NCBI GenBank assembly: GCA_001724025.1 | Contig: MEDJ01000016.1 | Location: forward strand, 1 to 46,353 | DNA from: Acidobacteria bacterium SCN 69-37 | GTDB lineage: Bacteria; Acidobacteriota; Vicinamibacteria; Vicinamibacterales; SCN-69-37 | Length of the DNA: 46,353 nucleotides | Direction: 5' to 3' | In this document: positions 10,116 to 29,200 of the stretch, one piece after another | How positions within the stretch are numbered: position 1 is the stretch's first letter | Layout: every line of letters begins with the position of its first letter | The notes under the pieces: generated by a model | The model's input: only the letters and a program-made list of their open reading frames with translations | What the model was told of the DNA's origin: nothing | The model's database searches: none | Position numbers and translations under genes: made by a program

Positions 10116-11339
10116 CTACGCGTTCCGAACTGGCGCGGTCAACACCTCGCGGACCTGATCGACCATCCAGAGCAGGTCGGTCTCCTCGATGACCAGCGGC
10201 GGCGCCAGCCGGATCACGCGCTCGTGCGTTTCCTTGCAGAGCACGCCGCGCTCGAGCAGGCGTTCGCAGTAGGCCCGCGCCGGCTCGCGCAGTTCGATGC
10301 CGGCCAGCAGGCCGATTCCGCGAATCGCCTGGATGACGGGACTCTCGATGGTCCGCAGCGCATCGAGCAGGACCTGGCCGAGCTTCGCGCTGCGCTCGAT
10401 CAGCTGTTCGTCGCGCAGGACCTGCAGGGCCGCGCGCGCCACGGCCGCGCCGAGCGGATTGCCGCCGAACGTGCTGCCATGGCTGCCGGGCGTGAACAGT
10501 TCCATCACCTCGCGTCGTCCCACGCAGGCCGACACCGGATAGAAGCCGCCCGACAGGGCCTTGCCGAGGATGTAAAGGTCCGGCTGGACGTCCTCGTGAT
10601 CGCAGGCGAACCACGCGCCGGTCCGGCCCAGCCCCGTCTGGATCTCGTCGGCGACGAGCAGCACGCGACGATCGCGGCACACATCCGCCGCCGCACGCAG
10701 GAACCCGGCCGGCGGCATCAGGATGCCGCCCTCGCACTGAATCGGCTCGAACAGGAACGCGCACGTGTTCGGCGTGATCGCGGCCTCGAGCGCGGCCAGG
10801 TCGCCGTACGGCACGCTGACGAATCCCGGTGTGAACGGCCCGAATCCGCGCTTGTAATCCTCATCGGACGAGAACCCGATGATCGTCGTCGTGCGGCCGT
10901 GGAAGTTGCCGCCGCAGACGATGATCTCCGCGGCCCCGTCCGGGATGCCCTTCCGGGCGTAGCCCCACTGGCGCGCCGCCTTGATGGCCGTCTCCACGGC
11001 TTCGGCGCCCGAGTTCATCGGCAGCACGACGTCGAGCCGGCAGATCGCCGCCAGGTCCTGACAGAAGAGCGGCAGCTGATCGTTGCGGAACGCCCGCGAG
11101 GTCAGCGTGACGCGCGACGCCTGCTCGATGAACACCTTCAGGATGGCCGGATGGACGTGCCCCTGGTTGAGCGCGGAATAGGCGCTGAGGCAGTCGAGAT
11201 AGCGCCGCCCCTCGACGTCGGTCACCCAGGCCCCCTGCGCGTGCGCGACGACGATCGGCAACGGGTGGTAGTTGTGCGCCCCCCACGTATCCTCGATAGC
11301 GAGCAGTTCTGCGGTGCGGGTCTGGGAACTCGTCGTCAT
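10116..11339 (-). CDS. rocD: Ornithine aminotransferase
   Basis: 407-aa class III PLP aminotransferase converting ornithine and 2-oxoglutarate to glutamate-5-semialdehyde and glutamate. Ornithine-aminotransferase hallmarks include the N-terminal NYHPLPIV and YLDCLSAYSALNQGH, the SGAEAVETAIK block (about 110-120), GNFHGRT, ADEIQTGLGRTG and the PLP lysine at residue 260 in ILGKALSGGFYP. Length fits the family. Its ATG overlaps the proC stop by 4 nt (ATGA), so translation is probably coupled. The product cyclises spontaneously to pyrroline-5-carboxylate, the substrate of the adjacent ProC, which makes a direct ornithine-to-proline route. Acetylornithine aminotransferase is less likely given the N-terminal signature. 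Confidence 0.93.
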   Translation of the reverse strand: MTTSSQTRTAELLAIEDTWGAHNYHPLPIVVAHAQGAWVTDVEGRRYLDCLSAYSALNQGHVHPAILKVFIEQASRVTLTSRAFRNDQLPLFCQDLAAICRLDVVLPMNSGAEAVETAIKAARQWGYARKGIPDGAAEIIVCGGNFHGRTTTIIGFSSDEDYKRGFGPFTPGFVSVPYGDLAALEAAITPNTCAFLFEPIQCEGGILMPPAGFLRAAADVCRDRRVLLVADEIQTGLGRTGAWFACDHEDVQPDLYILGKALSGGFYPVSACVGRREVMELFTPGSHGSTFGGNPLGAAVARAALQVLRDEQLIERSAKLGQVLLDALRTIESPVIQAIRGIGLLAGIELREPARAYCERLLERGVLCKETHERVIRLAPPLVIEETDLLWMVDQVREVLTAPVRNA

Positions 11340-12205
11340 GCGCGGTCGCCTGTCTTCCTGGTCGTGGATGCGGAACGGCCGAGATCTTCGACGATGCGCG
11401 TGGCTTCCTCTACCGCGCGAGCGAACACCGATCGGATCTTGCCGTCCTCGAGCATCAGCAACCCGCCAATCGTACACCCGGCCGGCGTCGTGACGTCATC
11501 GCGCAGCGACGCCGGGTGCCGGCCCGTCGCCTGCACCATGCGCGCGGCCCCGAGCATGGTCTGCGCCACGAGGGTCAATGCCAGATCGCGCGGCAGGCCG
11601 ACACGCACGCCGCCGTCGGCCAGCGCCTCCATCACCAGATACATGTACGCCGGTCCGCTGCCGCTCAGCGCGGTGATGGCGTTGCAATAGGTCTCGTCGA
11701 CCACCTCGCACCGGCCCACGGCCGCGAACACCCGCCGCGCCGTCTCGAGGTGATCCGTCGTCGCATCGCGGCCGCGGCAGACCACGGTCATGCCCTCGCC
11801 GACGACAGCCGGCGTGTTCGGCATGGCGCGGACCCACGGATTGGGCAACGCGAGCGCGGCCTCGAGCTGTGCGGTGGTCACCCCGGCCAGGATCGAGATG
11901 AAGAGCGTCGACGAGGCGGGCCCCGACGCGCGCGCCGTGGCCATCGTCGGCACGATCTGCGACGGCTTCACGCACACGAGCACGACGTCGGTCTGCGCCA
12001 GTTCGTGCCGGTAGTCTTCGCTGACCGCCACGCCCAGATCGCGCGCCACGACCTCTCGCGTTTCGGGGCTGCGATCGGCCGCCCAGATTTGATCGCGCGT
12101 CAACAACCCCGCCGACAGCAGCCCCTTCATCAGCGCCTGTCCCATGACGCCCGCGCCAATGACCCCGAGCTTGCGCCCGGCCGGAACCAGTGTGCCCGCT
12201 TCCAT
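11336..12205 (-). CDS. proC: Pyrroline-5-carboxylate reductase
   Basis: 289-aa NAD(P)H-dependent enzyme catalysing the last step of proline synthesis. The Rossmann motif GVIGAGVMG (14-22) is followed by VLVCVKPSQI and AMPNTPAVVGEG. The C-terminal P5CR signature runs from ALSGSGPAYMYL through DDVTTPAGCTIGGL. ATG 12205 follows GGAAGGGG. It starts 14 bases after the dprE2-like stop, and its own stop overlaps the rocD start. The pairing of proC with rocD inside an envelope-sugar operon is unusual. Confidence 0.95.
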   Translation of the reverse strand: MEAGTLVPAGRKLGVIGAGVMGQALMKGLLSAGLLTRDQIWAADRSPETREVVARDLGVAVSEDYRHELAQTDVVLVCVKPSQIVPTMATARASGPASSTLFISILAGVTTAQLEAALALPNPWVRAMPNTPAVVGEGMTVVCRGRDATTDHLETARRVFAAVGRCEVVDETYCNAITALSGSGPAYMYLVMEALADGGVRVGLPRDLALTLVAQTMLGAARMVQATGRHPASLRDDVTTPAGCTIGGLLMLEDGKIRSVFARAVEEATRIVEDLGRSASTTRKTGDRA

Positions 12206-12219
12206 CGATATCCCCTTCC

Positions 12220-12957
12220 TCAGAATCCTATCCGCCGCATGACCGCCCTCGGCAGCCGGCGGATCACGAACATCACGAGTGCCCAGATCGCGGGCGTATA
12301 CACCACGGGCGTGCCGCGATCGATCGCCCGGACGATGTCGCGGGCGACCTGATCGGGCTCGCCGGCGAAGGGCGGCGGACGCAGGCCGGCCGTCATGCCC
12401 GTCTTCACGAATCCCGGCTTCACGCACACCACCCGGAGACCCGCGCCGCGATACTTGTGGTCGAGCCCTTCCAGGTACTGCGAGAGGCCGGCCTTGCTGG
12501 CGCCGTACAGAATGACCGGTGTGCGCCCGCGATCCCCGGCCACGGAACTGACCACGCACAGCGTGCCGCCGCGCGGCAGCAGATACGGTCGCGCGTGCTC
12601 GCAGAAGACGACGGTGTGCGCGAAATTGAGCGTCAGCAGGCGGCGCGTGCGGTCGAGATCGCGCTCGAGCACGTCCTGCGTCGCGAAGTCCGCCGCCGTC
12701 ACGACGACCGTGTCGATGGTGCCCAGCGCCTCGGCCGCCGCGGCCAGCGCGGGGGCGAAGGTGTCGGGATCGGCCAGGTCGCAGACGGCCGTCCCGGCCG
12801 CCACGGCGCGGCCCGCGCGGACGTCGAGATCGGCCGCGCTCCTGGCCAGATCGGCCGCGTCGCGTCCGAGCAGGAACACACGGTCCCCCCGCGCGGCACA
12901 GCGACGCGCCACCGCCCGGCCGATGCCCTTCGTCCCTCCCAGAATCACGACGGTCAC
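12220..12957 (-). CDS. dprE2: DprE2-like short-chain dehydrogenase (decaprenylphosphoryl-2-keto-ribose reductase type)
   Basis: 245-aa SDR starting at GTG 12957, which overlaps the stop of the upstream FAD oxidase gene by 4 nt (GTGA). The nucleotide-binding motif is ILGGTKGIG. The active site has Ser in CVVSSVAGDRGR and Tyr/Lys in YGASKAGL. Compared with mycobacterial DprE2 as I recall it, the shared features go beyond the SDR core: SSxAGxRxR, YGxSKAGLxxYLxGL, a VKPGFVKTGM-type segment, and a hydrophobic C-terminal anchor ending in RRLPRAVMRRI. With DprE1 it epimerises polyprenylphosphoryl-ribose to polyprenylphosphoryl-arabinose, the donor for arabinosylation. The partner gene lies immediately upstream, which supports the assignment. 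The exact lipid carrier is unknown. Confidence 0.87.
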   Translation of the reverse strand: MTVVILGGTKGIGRAVARRCAARGDRVFLLGRDAADLARSAADLDVRAGRAVAAGTAVCDLADPDTFAPALAAAAEALGTIDTVVVTAADFATQDVLERDLDRTRRLLTLNFAHTVVFCEHARPYLLPRGGTLCVVSSVAGDRGRTPVILYGASKAGLSQYLEGLDHKYRGAGLRVVCVKPGFVKTGMTAGLRPPPFAGEPDQVARDIVRAIDRGTPVVYTPAIWALVMFVIRRLPRAVMRRIGF

Positions 12958-14276
12958 GATGGATCTCCGAACAGCCGGATCGACTGCTGACTGCGAATCC
13001 GGCCGTCCGGATCCCACCGGCGCCGGATGGTCTCGAACTCGGACAGCCGCGGCTCCATCGCGCGGAAGTGTTCGGCGCGCGTGTACGCGTCCTTCGCGAG
13101 ATAGACGCGCCCACCGGCCTCCACCACGAACGCGTTGAGCGCATCGACCACCTGCTGCGTGTCGTCGCGCACGGGCAGATCGAGCGCAACCGAGACGCCC
13201 GACAGCGGGAAGGACAGCAGCCCGTCGCCCTGGGGACCGCAATCCTTGATCACGCAGAGAAACGACGCCGCGCCGAAACGGCTCATGAGGACGAGCAGGT
13301 CGTGGACCGCTCGTGCGCCGGCCGACTCGGGCAGGACGCACTGGTACTGCGTGAATCCCGATCGCCCGTAGAGCCGGTTCCAGTGGTGGACCGAGTCGAG
13401 CGGATAGAAGAACGACTCGGGGTGCACGATGCGCGCGCGGGGCGTCGTGCGGTGGACGCGGTAGTAGACCGCGTTGAAGAGACGCCCGATCGTCGTGCCC
13501 ATCACCCACGAGGGACACGACACCGGCACGGAGAGCCGTCGCAGCCGGCGCGGAAAGCGCTGCGGCGCCTCGTCGGCCGTGGCCCAGCGTCCGGAGAACA
13601 GGACGCCGCGTCCCAGGCGCGGTCCCGTCGAGAGGCAGTCGATCCAGCCCATCGTGAACGGCCAGATCGCCGCCGCCGACTTGAGGGCGCCGACGAACGC
13701 GTCGATGTTCGGAATCCGCCGCGTCTCACCGATGATCCAGGGAGACGGCACGCGCACCAGCCGCAGCGTGACCTCGACGATGTGCCCGGTCAGGCCCATG
13801 CCGCCGATGGTCGCGCGGAACAGGTCCGCGTGGGCGGTGCGCGAGCAGCGCACGATCTCGCCGCCGGCCACGCGCAGGACGATCGCCCGCACGTGCGCGC
13901 CGATCGTCCCCGCGCGATGGTGATTCTTGCCGTGGACGTCGGCCGCCACCATGCCGCCCAGCGTCACGAACTGCGTGCCCGGCGAGACGGGCGTGAACCA
14001 GCCGCGCGGCAGGAAGGTATCCCACAAGTCGTAGAGACAATAGCCAGCCTCGGCCGTCAGGTCGCCCGTGGCCTCGTCGAACGCCAGCAGCCTGTCGGCC
14101 AGGACCGTGCTCGCGACAACGGGCTGGCTGGCGGGGGGCAGGGACGAATCGCCGTAGGACCGCCCCAGGCCGCGTGACAGCGGCACGTCGGCCGTCAGCG
14201 CCAGCAGATCCTCCGACCGCTGTTCGGTGCCGTCGACAGAGGTGCCCCCCCATCCCGAGATCCGGGCGACGGACAT
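12954..14276 (-). CDS. dprE1: DprE1-like FAD-linked oxidase (decaprenylphosphoryl-ribose 2'-oxidase type)
   Basis: 440-aa VAO-fold flavoenzyme from ATG 14276; an in-frame TTG at 14297 would overlap the hldD stop by 4 nt and is an alternative start. DprE1 signatures are clear: SRGLGRSYGD, GGMVAADVHGKNHHRAGTIG (FAD pocket), WNRLYGRSGFTQYQCV, and YLAKD carrying the active-site lysine equivalent to Lys418 of M. tuberculosis. The residue equivalent to Cys387, 31 residues before that lysine, is Ala here (codon 13185-13187, in SGVSVALDLPV). It oxidises polyprenylphosphoryl-ribose to the 2-keto form, which DprE2 reduces. No DPPR synthase (UbiA-like) gene is in this window. Confidence 0.9.
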   Translation of the reverse strand: MSVARISGWGGTSVDGTEQRSEDLLALTADVPLSRGLGRSYGDSSLPPASQPVVASTVLADRLLAFDEATGDLTAEAGYCLYDLWDTFLPRGWFTPVSPGTQFVTLGGMVAADVHGKNHHRAGTIGAHVRAIVLRVAGGEIVRCSRTAHADLFRATIGGMGLTGHIVEVTLRLVRVPSPWIIGETRRIPNIDAFVGALKSAAAIWPFTMGWIDCLSTGPRLGRGVLFSGRWATADEAPQRFPRRLRRLSVPVSCPSWVMGTTIGRLFNAVYYRVHRTTPRARIVHPESFFYPLDSVHHWNRLYGRSGFTQYQCVLPESAGARAVHDLLVLMSRFGAASFLCVIKDCGPQGDGLLSFPLSGVSVALDLPVRDDTQQVVDALNAFVVEAGGRVYLAKDAYTRAEHFRAMEPRLSEFETIRRRWDPDGRIRSQQSIRLFGDPS

Positions 14277-14293
14277 CGCCGGTGCCGCGCGCG

Positions 14294-15295
14294 TCAACAG
14301 CCGGGCCCCGCCTCGAGCGCCGTCACGTACTGTCGCACCCCTTCCTCGAGCGAGGTGGTCCGCCGCACGTAGCCGGCCGCCGCCAGCCGCCCCATCGTGG
14401 CCTGGGTGAAGTACTGATAGTGCGCGCGGATGTCGGGCGGCGTGTCGATGAAGTCGATGCGTTCGGGCTCCCCCAGCGCCGTGAACGTGGCCCGCGCGAG
14501 ATCGAGGAAGGTCCGCCCGCGCCCGCTGCCGAGATTGAAGATGCCGCGCGCGGGCGGACGCTCGACCAGCGCCAGCAGCGTATCGACCACGTCGTCGACG
14601 AACACGAAGTCGCGGGCCTGGTGGCCGTCGGCAATCCCGTCGCGGTGACTGCGGAACAGGCGGAGGCGGCCGGCCGCGCGAATCTGATCGAACGCCTGGA
14701 GCACCACGCTAGCCATCGGGCCCTTGTGGCGCTCGCCGTAGCCGTAGACGTTGAAGAACTTGAGACCGCACCAGTGCGCCGGCGCCCGACCCTCGCGCGC
14801 TTCGGCCAGCGCCCACACGTCAAACTGCTGCTTCGAGTCCCCGTAGGCGTTGAGCGGCACCAGACGCGCGATCAGCGTCTCGTCATCGTCGTACCCGAGG
14901 CGGCCATCGCCATAGGTGGCCGCGCTGCTGGCGTAGATGAACGGCACGCCGTGCGTCCGGGCATACTGCCAGAGGCGCTGCGATGCCTCGAGGTTCGTGG
15001 CGGTGAGATACGCCCTGTCGGTCTCGCGCGTATCGGTGCAGGCCCCCAGGTGCACGATGGCGGCCAGCGGCGGCGCGGTGGTGAGCCAGGCGTCGAGCCG
15101 ATCGGTCGCGACGATCCGGTCCGGATCGACAGGCGCGTGTTCGGCGCGTTCCGTGAAGTAGCGCGGCGTGTCGACGGCGATCACCGGCCAGCCTGCTGCC
15201 CGGCACGCCTCGAGGCAGCGGGCGCCGATGAATCCGGCCGCGCCGGTGACGAGGACCGGCTTCAGGGCATCGGCGTCATGAGCGGGATGGGTCAT
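14294..15295 (-). CDS. hldD: ADP-L-glycero-D-manno-heptose 6-epimerase
   Basis: 333-aa extended SDR, starting at ATG 15295. The motif VTGAAGFIG binds NADP. HldD-specific blocks include GACTDTRETD, FIYASSAATYGDG (Ser and Tyr region), FNVYGYGERHKGPMASV, ARDFVFVDDVVD, GIFNLGSGRGRTF and the C-terminal YFTQATMGRLAAAGY. It makes the heptose donor for lipopolysaccharide inner core, so the organism should have a heptose-containing LPS. It is the first gene of the minus-strand unit; the stop at 14294 lies in or next to the start region of dprE1. The frame is open further upstream, but no better start is seen. Confidence 0.93.
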   Translation of the reverse strand: MTHPAHDADALKPVLVTGAAGFIGARCLEACRAAGWPVIAVDTPRYFTERAEHAPVDPDRIVATDRLDAWLTTAPPLAAIVHLGACTDTRETDRAYLTATNLEASQRLWQYARTHGVPFIYASSAATYGDGRLGYDDDETLIARLVPLNAYGDSKQQFDVWALAEAREGRAPAHWCGLKFFNVYGYGERHKGPMASVVLQAFDQIRAAGRLRLFRSHRDGIADGHQARDFVFVDDVVDTLLALVERPPARGIFNLGSGRGRTFLDLARATFTALGEPERIDFIDTPPDIRAHYQYFTQATMGRLAAAGYVRRTTSLEEGVRQYVTALEAGPGC

Positions 15296-15642: not shown

Positions 15643-16956
15643 TTGCACGCCGGGAAGGCGCTGCCGCAAGATGCGCCAAGACCCGTGGCCCTCACGACCC
15701 GCACCTCCTCCCCCCACCGCTCACGACTCCTCGCGACGTCAGCCGAGCTCTTCTGGACGCACGGATACCGCGCCACCACCACGCGTCGCATTGCCTCGAC
15801 GCTCGGCCTGCAGCAGGCCACGCTGTATCACCACGTCGCCAGCAAGGAAGATCTGCTCTACGAAATCTGCGCCTCGTCACTCGCCCAGCTGCTGCGGGCC
15901 AGCGAGGCCGCCCTCTCGGGCCTGACGACGCCGCGCGAGCGGCTCGAAGCCCTCATCCGGACCACGATCCGCGAACTGCTCGCCAATCAGCGCGAACACG
16001 CGACGATGATCTTCGAGCTGCGCGGCCTGTCGACGCCGCGGCAGGACGACGTGCTCGGCGCGCTCGATCGCTACAGGCAGCTGATGCGCGGCATCCTCAC
16101 CGATGGCCAGCAGCGCGGCGATCTGCGCACCGACCTCGACGCGAAGTACCTCGAGCAGGGGCTCTTCAACCTGTTCACCTGGATCCTGGTCTGGTACGGG
16201 CCCGCCGAGGACCTGTCCCCCGACGCGCTGAGCGATCTCGTCATCGACCTGTTCCTGCACGGCGCCGCCACCGATCGCCGACGCGTGGCGCCGCCGGCCG
16301 CCTGGCCGCCCGACGCGCCGGCCGTCATCGACGACGGCTCGAAGAGCGAGGCGGTCCGCACCGCGCAGCGCATCTTCACGGTGGCCGCGCAGCTGTTCCG
16401 CGCCCGGGGCTATGACGCCACCACCGCGCGCGAAATTGCCGCGGTGCTCGGCATCCAGAAGGCGTCGCTCTACCATCACACGCGCGGCAAGGCGCACCTG
16501 CTGCACCAGGTCTGCACGATGGCGCTGCGCCAGATCCGGAAGGACGTGCTCGCGGCCACCGAGCACGTGCGCGATCCGCTCGAGCGCGTGCGCCAGCTCG
16601 TCATCGCCCACGTCACGAGCCTGCTCCAGCACCAGGATCAGCACGCGGCGTCGCTGCTCGAGGCCCGGGCCCTGTCGGGCGAGCAGGCCACCGACGTCGC
16701 GCTGCTGCGCGAAGCGCACGAATCGACCGTGCGTCACGTGCTCGATCTCGCGCAGCAGGCCGGCGCGCTGCGTCCCGAGTTGCCGACCCGGTATCTCGGC
16801 CTGCTGCTCTTCAGCCTCACCAACCGGACGATGCTCTGGTACCGCCCGAACGGACCACTGCGGCCCGCGCAGCTCGGGGAGTTGTTCGCCGTGCTGTTCC
16901 TCGCCGGCGCCGCGGCCCCCGACGCGACGCGCCAGCCGCGCGCGGCCGGCCGCTGA
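15643..16956 (+). CDS. Tandem double-TetR transcriptional regulator (two complete TetR units in one chain)
   Basis: 437 aa from TTG 15643; GTG 15685 is an equally possible start, and neither has a clear ribosome site. Two full TetR modules repeat with a period of about 215 residues. HTH 1 spans about residues 28-75 with recognition helix QQATLYHHV (57-65); HTH 2 spans about 240-290 with QKASLYHHT (272-280). Each is followed by a ligand domain ending alike: WYGPAEDLSPDALSDLV (184-200) and WYRPNGPLRPAQLGELF (399-415). The C-terminal style resembles KstR2-type regulators. TetR proteins usually work as dimers of single modules, so one chain could fold as a pseudo-dimer. It precedes NIPSNAP and SDR genes and is divergent from hldD. 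The ligand is unknown. Confidence 0.9.
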   Translation: MHAGKALPQDAPRPVALTTRTSSPHRSRLLATSAELFWTHGYRATTTRRIASTLGLQQATLYHHVASKEDLLYEICASSLAQLLRASEAALSGLTTPRERLEALIRTTIRELLANQREHATMIFELRGLSTPRQDDVLGALDRYRQLMRGILTDGQQRGDLRTDLDAKYLEQGLFNLFTWILVWYGPAEDLSPDALSDLVIDLFLHGAATDRRRVAPPAAWPPDAPAVIDDGSKSEAVRTAQRIFTVAAQLFRARGYDATTAREIAAVLGIQKASLYHHTRGKAHLLHQVCTMALRQIRKDVLAATEHVRDPLERVRQLVIAHVTSLLQHQDQHAASLLEARALSGEQATDVALLREAHESTVRHVLDLAQQAGALRPELPTRYLGLLLFSLTNRTMLWYRPNGPLRPAQLGELFAVLFLAGAAAPDATRQPRAAGR

Positions 16957-27079: not shown

Positions 27080-29200
27080 ATGCTGACGGCCTGCCTTCTC
27101 ATCGGGTTCGACGCGCTCGCTGTCGTCGCCCTGGCGGCCGCGGTGGTGATTGCCATCACGGGCGGCGGCCGCGTCGAGGTCCCGGGCCTCGAGATCCGGG
27201 CGCACTCGACGGGATCCCTGCTGCTGTTCCTGATCGTCTGGGGCCTCGTACGGTACCGCTGCCGGCATCGTCCCCTGCTCGCCCTGTCCGCTGCGCCACT
27301 TGCCAACCTCCCCGACCGCGCCCTGCGGGGCCTGGACGCCATCGGCTCGTTCCTCGATCGCCTGACGCGTCGTCGGGCCTGGACCATCGTCCTCCTGCTG
27401 TCGCTCGGCGTCGTCCTGCTGAAGACAGCGATCGCCGTGGGCCACCCAGGCTTCCTCGGCGGCGACGACGTCGAGGTGCACGAGATGACGCTGGGTGTCC
27501 TGCTCGGCACCGGCTGGCCGGTGTGGGAACTCCGCAGTGCCTTCTATCCGCTGGGCGTCGTCTATCCGGTGCAGTGGCTGGCGCGCGTTGCCGGCTGGTC
27601 GGACGTTGCGCACCTCGTCATCGCGGGCCGGCTGGCTGTCGTCGCGATCTCGACAATCAGCGTTGCGTATCTGTACAGGATCGCGACCCGTCGAGCCGCT
27701 CCGGCGATCGGGATCGTCGCCGCGACGCTGCTGGCGACCAGCAGTCTGTCCGTGGAGTTCGGCGCCACCGAACTGCCGCGACTGATCGCGGCGCTGATCG
27801 TGCTGATCGCGTACGGCATCCTCACGAGCGCGCAGCGAGCAGTCAACGCGATTGCCGCCGGGGCGCTCGTCGGCGTGGCGGCCTGCCTGCGATTCAGCGA
27901 GGTGGTGTTCGTGCTCCCGCTGATCGGGCACCTCGCGGCAGACAGGCGCGTCAGGCACGCGATCTACGCCCGCCTTGCGCTGGCGGCGACCGCCACGACC
28001 ATTCAGTGCGTCAGCGATCTCTGGTACTGGGGCACGCCGTTCGCGAGCGTCCGCGCGATCGTCGCGTTCACGCTCGTCGACCGCCTGTCGTCGCGTGGGT
28101 ACGACGCGTGGTGGTACTACGTGCGCGAGATCCCGAGCTGGTCCGACTACCTGGCTGTCGCCCTTGCGGTCTACGCGACGCCGCGCCATCGCCGGCTGAG
28201 CCTGTGGGTGTGGCTGCCTCTCGCCGCCCTGAGCGTGCTGCCGCACAAGGAGCCGCGGTATCTCGTGCCCGTCGTGCCGCTGCTCTCGCTGCTGGCCGCG
28301 CACGGGCTGATGGCGCTGGTCACCACTGTGCGCGCCAGACTCACCCCCGCGGCGCCGGCCATCGCGCTTGGCCTGCTCGCCGCCGTAGCCCTGAGGACGC
28401 TCGACCAGACGTCGAAGTATCACGTCACCCGCACGGACGGCGAGGTGGCGTTCGCCAGGGCGATGGCGCCGTCGCTGACGTCGGCGCCGGTACTCGCGGA
28501 GCAGGCGTGGCGCTTCGGCGGGCATCTCTATCTCGGGCACGGACGCCGCGTCAACGAACTCGAGCCCGACATCCCGGATCCCACGGCGTTCGAGGCCGCC
28601 ATCGCACGCACCAGGCCGGGCCTGAGCCTGGTATCGAACGGCACGTGCGACAGGACCGCGTGCGCGGCCACGCTGATGTCGCGCGGCTATCACGAGGTGC
28701 TCCCCTCGCCGCTGACAGCCGGGCGCTACCGCCTCTTCCGCCTCCCCGCCTTCCAGTCTTCCAGCCTCCTCCCAGCCTGTAGCCTCCCCGCCTCCCTACA
28801 CCGGCCAGTTTCTCGGCACCTTCACCACCCACGTGCCCGCGAACCTGTCGTGCCACGCCTGCTTCTCCGGATCGACGAGGATCCAGAAGCAGCCGAGGCC
28901 GAGGGCCACGAGCGAGAAGATGCTCGAGAACCCGCGAATCAGCGCGTCCGCGAACGTCAGCGGCGCCCCGTCGGTCCGCACCACGCGCAGGTTGCAGATG
29001 ATGCCGCCCACCGTCGTCGCCTTCAGTCCCCAGAAGACGACGTGATAGGCGAGCAGCAGCGAGAAGAAGGCGCGCTCGCTGCGTGCATCGAGCAGGTTGT
29101 AGGCGATGATCACCAGCAGCACGTCGAGGGCGAAGGCCGCCAGGCGATCGAGGAACGATGCCTTCGGCAGGGCCACGGCGGCGTCGAGTCCGGCGCCTGA
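27080..29200 (+). CDS. GT-C glycosyltransferase, GT22 (ALG9/PIG-B)-like, with read-through 3' end
   Basis: Multi-pass membrane mannosyltransferase-like protein using a polyprenyl-phosphate sugar donor. Acidic motif DDVEVHE at residues 129-135 in the first loop and HKEPRY at 389-394 match the HKE.R motif of GT22. Membrane helices extend to about residue 425, then a soluble tail follows. Recognisable protein ends near residue 554 (28741, GRYRLFRLP). From there the frame runs without a stop through an AGCCT-type repeat and about 400 bases antisense to the real RDD gene, to TGA 29198-29200. The original stop was probably lost when the repeat arose. It starts 31 bases after glcF. The sugar and acceptor are unknown. 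Confidence 0.75.
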   Translation: MLTACLLIGFDALAVVALAAAVVIAITGGGRVEVPGLEIRAHSTGSLLLFLIVWGLVRYRCRHRPLLALSAAPLANLPDRALRGLDAIGSFLDRLTRRRAWTIVLLLSLGVVLLKTAIAVGHPGFLGGDDVEVHEMTLGVLLGTGWPVWELRSAFYPLGVVYPVQWLARVAGWSDVAHLVIAGRLAVVAISTISVAYLYRIATRRAAPAIGIVAATLLATSSLSVEFGATELPRLIAALIVLIAYGILTSAQRAVNAIAAGALVGVAACLRFSEVVFVLPLIGHLAADRRVRHAIYARLALAATATTIQCVSDLWYWGTPFASVRAIVAFTLVDRLSSRGYDAWWYYVREIPSWSDYLAVALAVYATPRHRRLSLWVWLPLAALSVLPHKEPRYLVPVVPLLSLLAAHGLMALVTTVRARLTPAAPAIALGLLAAVALRTLDQTSKYHVTRTDGEVAFARAMAPSLTSAPVLAEQAWRFGGHLYLGHGRRVNELEPDIPDPTAFEAAIARTRPGLSLVSNGTCDRTACAATLMSRGYHEVLPSPLTAGRYRLFRLPAFQSSSLLPACSLPASLHRPVSRHLHHPRAREPVVPRLLLRIDEDPEAAEAEGHEREDAREPANQRVRERQRRPVGPHHAQVADDAAHRRRLQSPEDDVIGEQQREEGALAACIEQVVGDDHQQHVEGEGRQAIEERCLRQGHGGVESGA
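28745..28797. repeat. AGCCT-type simple repeat between convergent genes
   Basis: A degenerate CCAGCCT/GTAGCCT/CCGCCT tract (for example TTCCAGCCTCCTCCCAGCCT) at the junction of the GT22-like and RDD genes. The same style of repeat, longer, lies at 39575-39703. It contributes no stop codon in the frame of the upstream gene. Confidence 0.75.

Follow-up and report, generated by a model that had tools for sequence, protein, structure and literature searches.

Organization of the Locus

The window (the whole 46,353-nucleotide stretch of contig MEDJ01000016.1 from Acidobacteria bacterium SCN 69-37 analysed here) contains a run of five genes, hldD-dprE1-dprE2-proC-rocD, in which neighbors overlap or are separated by tiny gaps (Table 1). 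The end of dprE1 and the beginning of dprE2 share the tetranucleotide GTGA, as was recorded in a preliminary description of this DNA made from its sequence. That description began dprE1 at a TTG codon (14297), which would overlap the hldD stop; this start is possible, but the ATG at 14276 is likelier because the proteins of relatives begin just ahead of the GWG motif. The hldD product scores above the TIGR02197 cut-off (309 versus 275 bits), and proC and rocD belong to proline and ornithine metabolism. A promoter and terminator scan gave nothing informative. A plasmid origin of the locus was rejected; the only similar plasmid DNA was one ornithine aminotransferase gene (73%).

Table 1. Features of the dprE1/dprE2 locus (positions in the window)
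Feature	Coordinates	Strand	Remarks
DprE1-type FAD-dependent polyprenylphosphoryl-ribose 2'-oxidase (putative)	12954..14276	-	440 aa counted from ATG 14276
DprE2-type SDR reductase (putative; keto intermediate to arabinose)	12220..12957	-	GTG start at 12957
Ala codon GCG at the site of Mycobacterium tuberculosis DprE1 Cys387 (benzothiazinone adduct site)	13185..13187	-	
hldD, ADP-glyceromanno-heptose 6-epimerase	14294..15295	-	upstream of dprE1
proC, pyrroline-5-carboxylate reductase	11336..12205	-	same-strand run, downstream of dprE2
rocD, ornithine--oxo-acid transaminase (ornithine aminotransferase)	10116..11339	-	overlaps proC

Two other genes of the window, both on the plus strand, were also noted. 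One (15685-16956) encodes a 423-aa head-to-tail fusion of two complete TetR repressor units, with a homolog of similar length in a second genome of the same genus (G001); the other (27080-29200), about 13 kb from dprE1, encodes a 706-aa GT-C-like membrane protein (Alg9-like GT22/PMT_2).

Assignment of the Oxidase and the Reductase

The predicted oxidase carries the DprE1 motifs HGKNHHRAG, GFTQYQ, and YLAKD, and the SDR carries the DprE2 motifs SSVAGDRGR and YGASKAGL, as first read from the sequence. In phmmer searches of the PDB, the oxidase matches solved DprE1 proteins with E values of 4e-73 to 2e-69, the next family being an FAD-binding protein (2e-6); the best solved match of the reductase is M. 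tuberculosis DprE2 (2.5e-24), followed by another SDR (1.4e-18). The structural comparison suggested in the preliminary description was carried out with an AlphaFold model of the oxidase (pLDDT 93), which matches M. tuberculosis DprE1 over 405 residues (VIA Z 49.4, 2.2 Å); the best family other than DprE1 reaches Z 35.5, and lactone and alditol oxidases all lie at or below that value. Residues H132, K134, W230, Q334, Q336, K367, and K418 of the M. tuberculosis enzyme are kept in the window protein and in nearly all homologs.

Both proteins score below the cut-offs of the corresponding NCBIfam models: the oxidase has 346 bits against 500 for NF053785 (DprE1), over almost the full model length, and the reductase 143 against 250 for NF053786 (DprE2). 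The DprE1 cut-off is passed in 5 of the 297 genomes of the phylum, and full-length matches are present in about 60; with so few of these passing, the threshold delimits an inner group within the DprE1 family. Predicted fold, sequence, and phylogeny (see below) agree in supporting membership of the window oxidase in that family.

Alanine at the Benzothiazinone Site

Alignment with the M. tuberculosis and M. smegmatis enzymes places Lys418 at K402 and Cys387 at A371 (numbered from the TTG start), exactly 31 residues apart, confirming the earlier count back from the active-site lysine. The alanine is the usual residue, not the novelty that had been implied: in 100 DprE1 homologs covering the site, a sample skewed toward relatives of the window protein and with few Actinobacteria, there are 92 Ala, 5 Thr, and 3 Cys. 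The three cysteines belong to M. tuberculosis, M. smegmatis, and an Acidobacteriota metagenome-assembled genome (MAG; L066:5594-6928), the last being a non-actinobacterial DprE1. A natural alanine in M. avium and a serine in M. aurum have been recorded as the cause of benzothiazinone resistance (PMC3206020), and by analogy the window enzyme would form no covalent adduct, as had been proposed. Judged from these sequences, Cys387, missing from 97 of the 100 homologs, is not a defining feature of DprE1. The benzothiazinone-reactive cysteine thus appears to be lineage-specific, with alanine the common state, and covalent benzothiazinones are not expected to hit most bacterial DprE1 proteins by the Cys387 route.

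Pathway Genes Elsewhere in the Genome

The 4.43-Mb host genome (G000), which belongs to the order Vicinamibacterales of Acidobacteriota, encodes three UbiA proteins. One (contig C3, 71040-71984) passes two decaprenyl-phosphate phosphoribosyltransferase (DPPRS) equivalog models (285 versus 234 and 230 versus 207 bits), has M. tuberculosis DPPRS (8j8j) as its best solved match, and retains the full NDxxDxxxD and RxAE motifs, whose residues were studied in PMC11127046. The search for a DPPR synthase advised in the preliminary description has therefore produced one with both motifs, and the objection that the genome might lack this enzyme falls away. The other two UbiA proteins are a quinone-type enzyme and an EboC; the EboC-type gene (contig C24, locus L003) adjoins a dehydroquinate-synthase-like gene in an ebo-type cluster. 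The DPPRS gene and dprE1/dprE2 sit on separate contigs.

Because a DPPRS with complete motifs is encoded, the capacity for polyprenylphosphoryl-arabinose proposed earlier is supported, and the host likely synthesizes polyprenylphosphoryl-arabinofuranose; the accompanying suggestion that this would be new outside Actinobacteria does not stand (see below). The genome has no Emb-type arabinosyltransferases, and an arabinan of the mycobacterial kind is therefore not expected. A PF04138 search of the genome for a GtrA-type flippase gave no match; no 5'-phosphatase gene is linked to dprE1/dprE2, and the genome encodes two PAP2 phosphatases without a specific assignment. There are 19 PMT_2-type GT-C matches, and PF13231 matches are too numerous to single out one GT-C.

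Two genomes of family f9 encode a membrane protein with no Pfam match that appears GT-C-like by eye (L039:7622-8947 and L035:14622-16553; 62% identical). It lies beside or near dprE1/dprE2 in both, though their DprE1 proteins fall in different clades, and it is a candidate arabinofuranosyltransferase. It was not found in the other 58 Vicinamibacterales genomes searched, and the host genome has no relative of it.

Distribution and Linkage to DPPRS

A scan of genome contigs confirmed at least 578 relatives; the best 80 come from many phyla, among them Acidobacteriota, Myxococcota, Pseudomonadota, Bacteroidota, Cyanobacteriota, Nitrospirota, and others. One locus with dprE1, dprE2, and ubiA is on a contig titled Klebsiella pneumoniae (a MAG; L091); this label may be wrong for the bin, since the DprE1 clusters with that of an uncultured Pseudomonadales.

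In the phylogeny, the window protein falls within a clade of 27 rows (SH-aLRT 100%) drawn from Acidobacteriota, Myxococcota, and Binatota; the mycobacterial branch lies elsewhere in the tree. DprE2 adjoins DprE1 in 24 of the 27 clade loci and in 52 of 61 others, whereas a DPPRS-type UbiA is adjacent in only 2 of the 27 compared with 44 of the 61. In those two, L035 and L070, DPPRS, dprE1, and dprE2 form a single run, and the L035 genome has no DPPRS match other than the linked one; this linkage ties the window clade directly to the DPPRS pathway. A DPPRS-type UbiA is present in 19 of 20 clade genomes (above cut-off in 12); in an Archangium MAG of the clade, DprE1 is present and a DPPRS was not found. 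Conserved neighborhood was rejected as a guide to function, since beyond DprE2 the clade loci have neighbors in common only inside genera or closely related groups.

Vicinamibacterales are uninformative for co-occurrence (56 of 60 genomes have a DPPRS match), so Myxococcota relatives, among which presence is more variable, were used (n = 99). DprE1 and DPPRS co-occur there (73/3/9/14 for both, the two single-gene classes, and neither; Fisher p = 1e-8), and window-clade DprE1 goes with standalone DPPRS (16/2/28/53, p = 3e-5); these p-values, from tables parsed by hand, ignore shared descent.

Proposed Function

The pair is most probably a two-step 2'-epimerase of polyprenylphosphoryl-ribofuranose, a reading to which we give a probability of about 80%. 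We infer the activity, the lipid, and the direction of epimerization from gene identity, catalytic residues, predicted fold, and co-occurrence with DPPRS. The separately encoded DPPRS would join PRPP to polyprenyl phosphate, and a 5'-phosphatase step would then yield polyprenylphosphoryl-ribofuranose. DprE1, with FAD, would oxidize the 2'-hydroxyl of this lipid (probably an undecaprenyl derivative); DprE2, with NAD(P)H, would reduce the 2'-keto intermediate from the opposite face to give polyprenylphosphoryl-D-arabinofuranose. Presumably, the arabinose donor would then be flipped, and a GT-C glycosyltransferase would use it to modify an envelope glycan or protein.

It is also conceivable, if improbable, that a DprE1/DprE2-derived redox couple epimerizes some other lipid-linked or free sugar, for example in a local heptose or sugar pathway. 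The 25 clade loci without DPPRS linkage and the scores below both family cut-offs would fit such a role, as would the replacement of M. tuberculosis Asn385 and Tyr314 by Ser/Thr and Phe, but these replacements occur likewise in nearly all homologs, including UbiA-linked ones. The fully conserved catalytic residues, the two DPPRS-linked clade members, and the near-universal DPPRS of the clade genomes argue instead for polyprenylphosphoryl-ribose.

A special case of the epimerase reading names the acceptor: the pair and hldD would serve the LPS inner core, placing D-arabinofuranose on a heptose-containing core, as the preliminary description suggested in calling the locus an LPS-type operon. We regard this as unlikely. 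The gene for the heptose epimerase does lie immediately upstream of dprE1, on the same strand and with virtually no gap, in both the host and G001, but among the loci compared this adjacency is confined to the genus and is for that reason weak evidence for LPS; moreover, the downstream genes are proC and the ornithine aminotransferase gene, and the run has no glycosyltransferase or flippase gene, so the label of an LPS-type operon is not upheld.

That the oxidase is an aldonolactone or alditol oxidase mistaken for DprE1 is scarcely credible and was rejected: a VAO-type fold is shared with DprE1 and models for ALO and FAD lactone oxidase match weakly, but the DprE1 match is far stronger in PDB sequence and profile comparisons, fold scores are clearly apart, and the tree groups the window protein with DprE1 rows and not, as the preliminary description had considered, with lactone or sugar oxidases, whose rows have very long branches.

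A Probably Older Ribofuranosyl Pathway and Separate Gains of the Pair

The C3-type DPPRS occurs in most of the 60 Vicinamibacterales genomes, 56 of which gave a match, whereas DprE1 proper is found in about 14; DPPRS is present also where DprE1/DprE2 are absent. Beside purD there is a conserved run consisting of a STAS protein, DPPRS, a coiled-coil-like protein of about 280 aa with no Pfam match, and GT4 enzymes (L032:6956-14369, on contig C3 of the host, and L024-L031). The run also occurs in genomes that lack DprE1/DprE2. This synteny is kept in genomes of families f1, f7, and f13, which argues for vertical descent of DPPRS, and the run suggests a ribofuranosyl-containing glycan common to the order. 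Since DPPRS is order-wide even without the pair, synthesis of the ribofuranosyl donor is independent of DprE1/DprE2 and probably predates them in Vicinamibacterales.

Within the window's family, genus g1 (the window and L034) and genus g2 (L036 and L041-L043) occupy separate positions within the clade, g2 grouping with Myxococcota. A single origin in the family was rejected (the constraint costs 89 log-likelihood units; p-AU = 4.6e-5), in a test whose constrained group was chosen after an earlier tree had been seen and in which many rows are MAGs. The neighbors of the pair also differ, with hldD and proC in g1 and a deoxyhypusine-synthase-family gene in g2, where dprE1/dprE2 follow that gene and a second conserved one (L036:11423-13450 and L041-L043). 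On this phylogenetic evidence the pair was gained separately by the two genera, and the window's genus probably acquired it horizontally, as an addition to a pathway already in the order; DprE1/DprE2 look like an add-on that turns an existing ribofuranosyl donor into an arabinofuranosyl one.

A broader proposal, which we hold tentatively and at slightly less than even odds, is that the order-wide DPPRS feeds an undescribed envelope glycan, and that horizontally acquired DprE1/DprE2, gained twice in one family, switch it from ribofuranose to D-arabinofuranose. If so, the pair would be a mobile switch that diversifies glycans, operating on a distant pathway that is inherited vertically.

Comparison with Known Systems

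DprE1/DprE2 pairs outside Actinobacteria are already known from the pilin system of Pseudomonas paraeruginosa and from O-antigen systems (PMC11127046, PMC12369383), and relatives occur in many phyla, so the novelty implied earlier does not hold. For Acidobacteriota and Myxococcota, the present results point to glycans that contain D-arabinofuranose or ribofuranose. The window pair resembles M. tuberculosis DprE1/DprE2 (Rv3790/Rv3791) in fold, catalytic residues, two-enzyme organization, and a genomic DPPRS. In contrast to that system, the window DprE1 is about 35% identical to its counterpart, has alanine for Cys387, and belongs to a distinct clade, in a genome without Emb arabinosyltransferases.

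The D-arabinofuranose cluster of P. paraeruginosa (PSPA7_6245-6251), which serves pilin glycosylation (PMC12369383), is likewise a non-actinobacterial pathway that includes a ubiA gene; its genes are gathered in one genomic island and its pilin target is known, whereas the window pair lies apart from its ubiA. Similar in logic are the three-component pentofuranose systems, in which the arabinofuranose variants contain DprE1/DprE2 (PMC11127046): these share with our proposal a PPPRS-derived donor, an epimerase as an optional add-on, and periplasmic use by a GT-C enzyme. Their genes are clustered and the characterized PPPRS carries a fused HAD phosphatase domain, whereas the host of the window pair has a standalone DPPRS at another place in the genome and lacks a linked GT-C or flippase gene.
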